From Candidatus Gastranaerophilales bacterium (lineage in GTDB: Bacteria > Cyanobacteriota > Vampirovibrionia > Gastranaerophilales > Gastranaerophilaceae), in NCBI GenBank assembly GCA_944326425.1, contig CALVDX010000016.1, forward strand, positions 1 through 43,009: DNA of 43,009 bases. Direction: 5' to 3'. Position 1 is the stretch's first letter; each line of letters begins with the position of its first letter. This document shows positions 7,659 through 29,597 of this stretch, in pieces. The notes below the pieces were generated by a model. The model was not told where the DNA came from. It ran no database searches and was given only the letters and a program-made list of their open reading frames with translations. Both the position numbers and the translations under genes were made by a program.

Positions 7659-7730
7659 GCCGGTATAGCTCAACGGTAGAGCAACGGTTTTGTAAACCGT
7701 AGGTTGTAGGTTCGATTCCTATTACCGGCT
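7659..7730 (+). tRNA. tRNA-Thr (anticodon TGT)
   Basis: A complete 72-nt cloverleaf. The acceptor GCCGGTA pairs with TACCGGC, discriminator T. The D-arm is GCTC/GAGC, the anticodon stem ACGGT/ACCGT has loop TTTGTAA, and the T-arm GTAGG/CCTAT has TTCGATT. No CCA is encoded. Confidence 0.95.
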
Positions 7731-7892
7731 TTTTATCCCCCGGCGGAACAGAGGACCTGACAAAGGGCGGAGTAAAGGGCAGAACAAAGGTAAGTAAACC
7801 TTGCAAATTAAACGAGAGGCCGGCCTAGAGTTAAGCCGCTTGAAATTTGTAAAAGGACCGGAGCTAAAGTAAACGCAACGGAAGTACCAGAA
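7731..7892 (+). other. Purine-rich spacer between the two tRNA-Thr genes
   Basis: A 162-bp spacer with no gene. It is unusually rich in GGG/GGA and AAAGG words (AAAGGGCGGAGTAAAGGG and similar) and less AT-rich than its surroundings. It contains no terminator, so the three tRNAs are probably co-transcribed and processed. Confidence 0.6.
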
Positions 7893-7964
7893 GCCTTTGT
7901 GGCGCAGGGGTAGCGCACTCCCTTGGTAAGGGAGAGGCCATGGGTTCAAATCCCATCAAAGGCA
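7893..7964 (+). tRNA. tRNA-Thr (anticodon GGT)
   Basis: A 72-nt cloverleaf. The acceptor GCCTTTG pairs with CAAAGGC, discriminator A. The anticodon stem CTCCC/GGGAG has loop TTGGTAA and the T-arm is TGGG-TTCAAAT-CCCA. No CCA is encoded. Confidence 0.95.
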
Positions 7965-7984
7965 AATTTTTGAAAACTTAATAC

Positions 7985-8067
7985 GGGTAGGTGGCCGAGT
8001 GGCTAAAGGCGACAGACTGTAAATCTGTTCACGAGAGTGTACGGTGGTTCGAATCCACCCCTGCCCA
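7985..8067 (+). tRNA. tRNA-Tyr (anticodon GTA)
   Basis: An 83-nt class II tRNA with a long variable arm. The acceptor GGGTAGG pairs with CCTGCCC (one wobble), discriminator A. The anticodon stem ACAGA/TCTGT has loop CTGTAAA. It lies 20 nt after tRNA-Thr(GGT). A Thr-Thr-Tyr grouping is also known from other bacteria. Confidence 0.95.
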
Positions 8068-29020: not shown

Positions 29021-29213
29021 TATTTTTGCCTGTTCTGATGCTCTACCGTTTCTGCCGTAAGATAGTACTATAGAAAGAGAAACAAAAATTATTTTTAAGT
29101 AAAAAGCCTGCCCCCCTTTACAAAAAAAAATCAGCATATTATAATAACTTTGCAGGTGGTTGACCTGTAGAAATGCTGAAATATAAAGTGCTATTGTTGT
29201 TAATACGGCGTAG
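29021..29213 (+). other. Gene-free stretch between truB and the tRNA-Ala array
   Basis: No coding sequence. It contains a C6 tract and an A9 tract (29111-29129) and, further on, the tRNA promoter listed separately. Confidence 0.5.
29160..29187 (+). promoter_or_regulatory. Promoter reading into the tRNA-Ala array
   Basis: TTGACC, a 16-bp spacer and TATAAA. Initiation near 29194 would transcribe both 100-bp units and then tRNA-Ala. Confidence 0.55.
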
Positions 29214-29443
29214 TACAACCATTATGGGGGCTTAGCTCAGCTGCCCCAGGAACCGGTAAGGTTCCGAATAGAGATATAATGCTCTACCTGCTGAGCAGTG
29301 ATAATTGAATATTTACAACCATTATGGGGGCTTAGCTCAGCTGCCCCAGGAACCGGTAAGGTTCCGAATAGAGATATAATGCTCTACCTGCTGAGCAGTG
29401 ATAATTGAATATTTACAACCATTATGGGGGCTTAGCTCAGCTG
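29214..29443 (+). repeat. Two exact 100-bp tandem units carrying tRNA-Ala 5' fragments
   Basis: Unit 1 is 29214-29313 and unit 2 is 29314-29413, identical throughout. A 30-bp partial third copy (29414-29443) runs into the real tRNA. Each unit has a 30-bp segment (TACAACCATTAT plus the first 18 nt of tRNA-Ala) and a 70-bp core. The core holds hairpins GGAACC-GGTAA-GGTTCC and TAGAG-N8-CTCTA, then ATGCTCTACCTGCTGAGC, the antisense of the tRNA D-arm with one mismatch. GCTCAGC of the fragment pairs perfectly with GCTGAGC of the core. Confidence 0.95.
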
Positions 29444-29498
29444 GTAGAGCATCTGTTTTGCACGCAGAGGGTCAGGAGTTCGAATCTCCTAGCCTCCA
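29426..29498 (+). tRNA. tRNA-Ala (anticodon TGC)
   Basis: A complete 73-nt cloverleaf. The acceptor GGGGGCT pairs with AGCCTCC (one G-T), discriminator A. The D-arm is GCTC/GAGC, the anticodon loop TTTGCAC carries TGC, and the T-arm is AGGAG-TTCGAAT-CTCCT. No CCA is encoded. Its first 18 nt are duplicated twice upstream. Confidence 0.96.
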
Positions 29499-29505
29499 AA
29501 AATAT

Positions 29506-29533
29506 AAAAAAGAGCCTTCTAAGGCTCTTTTTT
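29506..29533 (+). terminator. Rho-independent terminator of tRNA-Ala
   Basis: Stem AAAGAGCCTT / AAGGCTCTTT extended by flanking A and T runs, 2-nt loop CT, then a T-tract. Confidence 0.9.
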
Positions 29534-29597
29534 ATTACGTTTTAGTCTATTTTAATATTTCAAAATACAACCCGCTAACACTTCTCCACACGCCCCA

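Follow-up and report, generated by a model that had tools for sequence, protein, structure and literature searches.

The DNA analysed here (the window) is a stretch of 43,009 nt from a Gastranaerophilales MAG, a short-read assembly from an order of gut bacteria within the non-photosynthetic Cyanobacteriota. Immediately upstream of its tRNA-Ala(UGC) gene, a repeat search found two exact 100-bp copies of one sequence (29214–29313 and 29314–29413), as a first-pass annotation had described. The shorter 30-bp repeat of that annotation (12 nt of leader plus tRNA nt 1–18) also proved real, with a third, partial copy of 30 nt at 29414–29443 that extends into tRNA-Ala. The unit is most naturally framed from tRNA nt 1, which gives units at 29226–29325 and 29326–29425. 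From 5′ to 3′, each unit comprises a sense copy of tRNA nt 1–18, CCCC, a hairpin (GGAACC-GGTAA-GGTTCC), GAA, TAGAG, an antisense D-arm ATGCTCTACCTGCTGAGC, a box TGATAATTGAATA and a short leader. The antisense arms (29279–29296 and 29379–29396) are complementary at 17 of 18 positions to the tRNA stretch 29435–29452, in agreement with the single mismatch first noted in both units. ARAGORN places the tRNA gene at 29425–29499 and Rfam at 29426–29498. The features of the locus are as follows.

29117–29145, + strand: promoter TTTACA-N17-TATAAT, 11 of 12 matches
29226–29325, + strand: unit 1, framed from tRNA nt 1 (repeat search)
29226–29243, + strand: unit 1 sense copy of tRNA-Ala nt 1–18 (sequence match)
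29249–29265, + strand: unit 1 core hairpin GGAACC/GGTTCC, covarying in Ala/Ile units
29279–29296, + strand: unit 1 antisense of the tRNA D-arm, 17 of 18 complementary
29299–29311, + strand: unit 1 box TGATAATTGAATA, boxA-like (sequence match)
29326–29425, + strand: unit 2, identical to unit 1 and adjoining the tRNA (repeat search)
29326–29343, + strand: unit 2 sense copy of tRNA nt 1–18 (sequence match)
29349–29365, + strand: unit 2 core hairpin, covarying in Ala/Ile units
29379–29396, + strand: unit 2 antisense of the tRNA D-arm (complementarity; folding)
29399–29411, + strand: unit 2 box TGATAATTGAATA (sequence match)
29412–29425, + strand: short leader, whose final 12 nt recur before each copy of nt 1 (repeat search)
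29426–29498, + strand: tRNA-Ala(UGC) (ARAGORN, Rfam)
29504–29535, + strand: predicted intrinsic terminator of the transcription unit

The promoter listed replaces one originally proposed at 29160 (TTGACC-18-TAAAGT), which matches at only 9 of 12 positions. Together, promoter and terminator place the units within the 5′ leader of the tRNA transcript. The number of units assembled from short reads is provisional, but the junction between one unit and the tRNA is unique and recurs in many independent assemblies. Elsewhere in the window, a tRNA-Thr, tRNA-Thr, tRNA-Tyr cluster (7659–8067) carries no units.

The search for the core at other tRNAs that the first-pass annotation had proposed was positive, with the architecture present at about 18–19 isoacceptor types. 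Among fetched stretches around tRNAs, we detected 135 units, of which 120 are distinct, at 94 of 269 tRNA genes, a proportion that depends on the detection threshold and is not a genome-wide frequency, since the fetched set is enriched for unit-bearing genes. These genes encode tRNAs for Ala, Val, Phe, Gly, Lys, Met, Asn, Pro, Leu, Ile, Arg and Trp, under 19 isoacceptor labels that include one ARAGORN mis-call of tRNA-Lys. The combination of sense copy and antisense occurred in 94 of 269 real tRNA leaders and in 0 of 269 shuffled leaders, which excludes chance. The window's own genome has units at 8–10 of its 40 tRNAs (Val(TAC), Met, Phe, Asn, Pro(TGG), Pro(CGG), Leu(TAA), Leu(GAG) and Ala(TGC)), with an array of 3 × 130 bp at Val(TAC).

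We found the tRNA-Ala unit in sister species and in another family of the order by DNA search of relatives, and a degenerate pattern scan of named genomes gave matches in Candidatus Gastranaerophilales, with the same design at tRNA-Lys and tRNA-Gly. A strict pattern of anti-D-loop plus box matched 99 of the family's 383 genomes, spread over 21 of 41 genera, and gave about 6 hits when reversed; in its forward form it also matched further families of Gastranaerophilales. Without the box, matches within the phylum were confined to Gastranaerophilales (31 of 386 genomes; reversed control, 0), and the pattern scan gave no match in the other Vampirovibrionia and photosynthetic Cyanobacteria that were sampled. 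A single match in viral contigs lacks a tRNA and was dismissed as chance, and matches in Erythrobacter and SKS1.bin72 look like chance or antisense-tRNA arrangements. Contig JAQVGD010000095.1, whose MAG bears the label Lutibacter, has Gastranaerophilales-type units for tRNA-Lys and tRNA-Arg and is probably mis-binned.

Copy number differs among sister species (1–5). The largest array that we found, at a tRNA-Phe gene in another family of the order, consists of five tandem 84–87-bp units with a minimal core. Units are missing from many genera and from most tRNA genes, and some units are decayed, which indicates that the element is dispensable. At one tRNA-Val gene (genome G004), for example, the sense copy is kept and the antisense and box are lost, and the Val-type units of the sister genomes G000, G001 and G006 are intact. 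The genomes are short-read MAGs of uncultured hosts, and their contigs frequently break off within a unit or within the tRNA beside it (loci L239, L251, L264, L281, L288, L290, L307, L312 and L313), suggesting that the arrays break assemblies and that our unit counts are likely to be too low.

Across the family, a unit of about 80–130 bp consists of a sense copy of nt 1–13, a variable core, an antisense segment best conserved opposite the D-loop (nt 14–20) and a box TGAAAATTGAATA; the last unit mostly ends 22–35 nt before the tRNA. In the 120 distinct units, sense-copy identity was 0.93–1.00 at nt 1–10, fading after nt 13 to about 0.2–0.3 from nt 19, figures that are biased because the sense copy was among the detection criteria. 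When leaders were picked by antisense alone, 85 of 90 also had the sense copy. Antisense identity in the same units was maximal at nt 14–20 (0.88–0.98). Since the sense D-loop is mostly absent from the unit, only the tRNA offers the anti-D-loop a complete pairing partner. Measured against 42 tRNA types, the antisense of 109 of the 120 distinct units fitted none better than its own tRNA. Related cores are common to different tRNAs (Leu and Lys-CTT, Val and Gly, Phe and Met, Ala and Ile); thus the core behaves as a module spread or exchanged among tRNA genes. Two further arrangements were seen. Upstream of tRNA-Arg(TCT) in genome G002, a T-armless pseudo-tRNA-Arg with acceptor pairing is followed by box and leader and then by the true tRNA, and may be a transitional form on the way to a unit. 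Just downstream of a unit-bearing tRNA-Lys (L029) lie degenerate copies of the tRNA-Lys 3′ half (CCTTTTAAGGGATAGGTCGCGCGTTCGAATC...), rtT-like and on the 3′ side, with similar remnants at L035, L036, L040 and L042.

Between species, the tRNA-Ala unit is 75–84% identical and the promoter 62–80%, whereas the spacer between promoter and unit is 30–57% and the sequence past the terminator 47–58% identical. In the core hairpin of the Ala/Ile units, all 60 cells were paired and 18 changes were two-sided; covariation was 0.967 compared with 0.261 in shuffles, although the arms of the hairpin were chosen by eye as hairpin halves, which favours pairing. Stems A and B of the Ala/Ile alignment were paired in 86% of cells with zero double changes, and we do not count them as support for this reason. 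The GCTCAGC/GCTGAGC stem of the first-pass annotation does pair in 87.8% of cells (13 Ala/Ile units), but it too shows zero double changes, so covariation backs the core hairpin and not this stem.

A strict match to the box was present in 76 of 94 unit-bearing leaders and in 17 of 175 others. The box TTTGAAAATTGAATA also occurs in the 16S leaders of two relatives (G041 and G046), with a second, similar copy beside it; 16S rRNA was not found in the window's genome, and the comparison is therefore drawn from these relatives. We take the box in their 16S leaders to resemble the boxA region of Bacillus rRNA leaders. A TTTACAAAAAAAA...TATAAT-like element similar to the window's promoter is present at the tRNA-Ala loci of G004, G256 and G138, and promoter-like sites (score ≥10.5) occurred upstream of the first unit at 63 of 92 loci compared with inside units at 1 of 92.

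We folded the last unit together with its tRNA. In the minimum free energy structure (MFE) of all 51 distinct tRNA genes, the upstream antisense was base-paired to the D-arm, and the tRNA had lost its own acceptor stem; in 44 of the 51, the unit's copy of nt 1–7 replaced the tRNA's own strand on the 3′ acceptor strand. The mean ΔΔG was −11.2 kcal/mol for cognate pairs, compared with −2.8 for non-cognate pairs and −2.1 for leaders of tRNAs without a unit, and the mean gain in controls was 4.5 kcal/mol with scrambled antisense and 2.2 kcal/mol with shuffled leaders. Acceptor exchange occurred in 86% of cognate pairs, 8% of non-cognate pairs and 1% of leaders without a unit. In the window, the trapped fold lies below an enforced cloverleaf by 12.5 kcal/mol with one unit and by 10.0 kcal/mol in the whole transcript; here and at several other Ala loci, the MFE shows the D-arm trap only, with no acceptor exchange. 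These energies concern secondary structure only, as ViennaRNA takes no account of tertiary structure in the tRNA, of proteins or of the order of folding during transcription, and the trap follows in part from the built-in complementarity, which any MFE would show. In ensembles of the unit alone, the antisense was mostly paired, with an unpaired probability of 0.32–0.49 opposite nt 16–18 and 0.12–0.2 in the flanks; in this model, the least-paired part is a possible toehold. The computations thus yield two mutually exclusive, cognate-specific folds that are both energetically accessible, as in a bistable switch.

The units may be cis-acting, tRNA-specific bistable leaders that control folding and maturation of the precursor tRNA, a reading that we judge about evenly poised between right and wrong. 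Its basis is the architecture, the matching to individual tRNAs, the conservation, the core covariation and the computed exclusive folds, from which we infer the folds in cells, the control of maturation and the trigger. In one state, the unit would fold on itself, with the sense copy paired internally, the core hairpin formed and the antisense largely sequestered, and the tRNA would adopt a cloverleaf open to RNase P. In the second state, the antisense would invade the tRNA D-arm starting at the D-loop, the tRNA's own acceptor stem would open and the unit's copy of nt 1–7 would occupy the 3′ acceptor strand, sequestering the true 5′ end. RNase P would see a cloverleaf in the first state and be misled or blocked in the second, so that the ratio of the two states would set the amount of mature tRNA; tandem copies might shift this ratio. 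The presence of an rRNA-type, boxA-like box beside each unit suggests the Nus elongation complex or transcription speed as the switch, and the box could couple the choice of fold to the elongation complex. The first-pass annotation had offered cis-acting control of maturation, with competing 5′ halves, as one of its readings; it is the one that fits best, given the capture of the 3′ acceptor strand by the nt 1–7 copy in most MFEs. More tentatively, the leaders may form a genome-wide, riboswitch-like class that adjusts tRNA supply isoacceptor by isoacceptor through strand exchange, with a 5′-strand mimic and an anti-D-loop competing against the cloverleaf, and that re-adapts to each new tRNA it reaches and tunes its strength by tandem copies. 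We identified no conserved ligand-binding core common to all tRNAs among the units.

Against a bistable leader stands the dispensability of the element, and sense and antisense segments may be homogenized by recombination between repeats. The latter idea is central to an explanation that we consider unlikely but deserving of weight, in which the units are neutral or selfish tandem repeats that arose by duplication of the leader and the 5′ part of the tRNA with snap-back template switching, their similarity to the tRNA being kept by recombination. The variation in unit number among sister species, the decay or absence of units in many genomes, the pseudo-tRNA-Arg ahead of tRNA-Arg in G002 and the way in which sense copies track changes in tRNA sequence all fit such an origin. 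However, neutral repeats would not be expected to be conserved as the promoter is while the adjacent spacer is not, to acquire compensatory changes in the core hairpin or to have similar cores at different tRNAs, and no part of the antisense is better preserved than the D-loop complement, even though this lies outside the sense repeat. Two origins in the first-pass annotation, a tiny insertion into the D-loop and a one-off template-switch duplication, are disfavoured because each leaves the conservation across genera, the tRNA-matched D-loop antisense and the covarying core unexplained. An artefact of assembly, or a single insertion event at the D-loop of tRNA-Ala, is scarcely credible as the source of the repeats: exact repeats in a short-read MAG, and contigs that end in such arrays, do invite suspicion, but the presence of diverged, non-identical units at so many isoacceptor types in dozens of independent assemblies refutes an artefact as the source of their presence.

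Two functional alternatives share parts of the evidence. A small RNA of about 100 nt might be excised from the leader, for instance at the AU-rich box, and act in trans as a sponge, guide or stability factor by binding the D-arm of its own tRNA or of that tRNA's precursors at other places. Within the antisense, pairing in unit-only ensembles is locally weakest at the D-loop complement, tandem copies would raise dosage and the box offers AU-rich, probably single-stranded sites; yet confirmed units always lie 5′ of and adjoin their own tRNA at tight spacing, and pattern matches elsewhere look like isolated chance sites or fall at contig ends, making this role quite improbable. We give slightly less credence still to a folding aid, that is, a co-transcriptional chaperone or insulator that guards the 5′ region of the nascent tRNA against mispairing and hands it over to Nus or RNase P, with the trap as a side effect. 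The boxA-like element common to units and rRNA leader speaks for it, as does the finding that boxA and leader helices aid pre-rRNA maturation in E. coli (PMC10250234), but the antisense lowers the predicted stability of the cloverleaf and other tRNA genes of the same genome manage without a unit.

The leaders look like an undescribed RNA switch on tRNA production. We know of no cis-acting RNA switch on tRNA genes themselves, and Rfam and the papers that we searched yielded none. Should the proposed mechanism hold, individual tRNAs across a whole bacterial order would be controlled by folding rather than by transcription start, and tRNA levels could become tunable per codon. The design, a copy of an RNA's own 5′ end plus an anti-D-loop, could serve as a tool for controlling structured RNAs, and the arrays account for some of the broken MAG contigs at tRNA genes.

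We compared the units with known systems. At permissive thresholds, a cmscan comparison of Rfam with the window region and with 17 loci that bear units detected tRNA only, plus an SRP RNA on the opposite strand upstream of tRNA-Met; bacterial large SRP RNA lies divergently upstream of unit-bearing tRNA-Met at L051 (687–941) and L170 (261–515). ARAGORN and the Rfam tRNA model detect only the downstream tRNA and not the unit, and a literature search found no description of such tRNA leaders. Self-cleaving ribozymes (HDV-like, hammerhead, pistol and twister) were considered because GGGG/CCCC and GCTCAGC/GCTGAGC would form a pseudoknot, and were rejected since Rfam gave no match and units such as those of Asn, Lys and Pro place the acceptor complement elsewhere.

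The rtT repeats of the E. coli tyrT locus lie downstream of the tRNA, copy its 3′ end and occur at one tRNA only. Like the units, they are tandem repeats in a tRNA transcription unit that each carry a piece of tRNA, but they have no antisense D-arm, whereas the units lie upstream with nt 1–13 in sense and the D-loop in antisense; no rtT-type match appeared in the Rfam scans of the window region and the 17 loci. Integrative elements at tRNA genes likewise restore a tRNA segment as a direct repeat and can form tandem arrays. The units, at about 80–130 bp, carry no gene and leave no room for an integrase gene, and they copy the 5′ end and leader, not the 3′ end. T-boxes control amino-acid genes and recognize, in trans, the anticodon and 3′ end of a tRNA. 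They too are leader RNAs that pair with a specific tRNA, and such pairing could switch folds here as well, but the partner is the D-loop of the tRNA encoded just downstream; the T-box covariance model gave no match by cmscan in the window region and 17 unit-bearing loci, and the units mostly stand 22–35 nt upstream of tRNA genes and not of amino-acid or aminoacyl-tRNA synthetase genes. The comparison with boxA/Nus rRNA leaders rests on the box of the 16S leader, which recurs beside the units as a boxA-like sequence, with NusB–NusE binding putative, and on the help that leader RNA gives to precursor maturation; to our knowledge, rRNA leaders do not combine a duplicate of the 5′ domain of their own product RNA with its antisense in this way. 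With attenuators and other bistable leaders, the units share mutually exclusive pairings of sense, antisense and anti-antisense, and they differ in having no terminator inside the unit and in that the competing fold is the tRNA cloverleaf itself.
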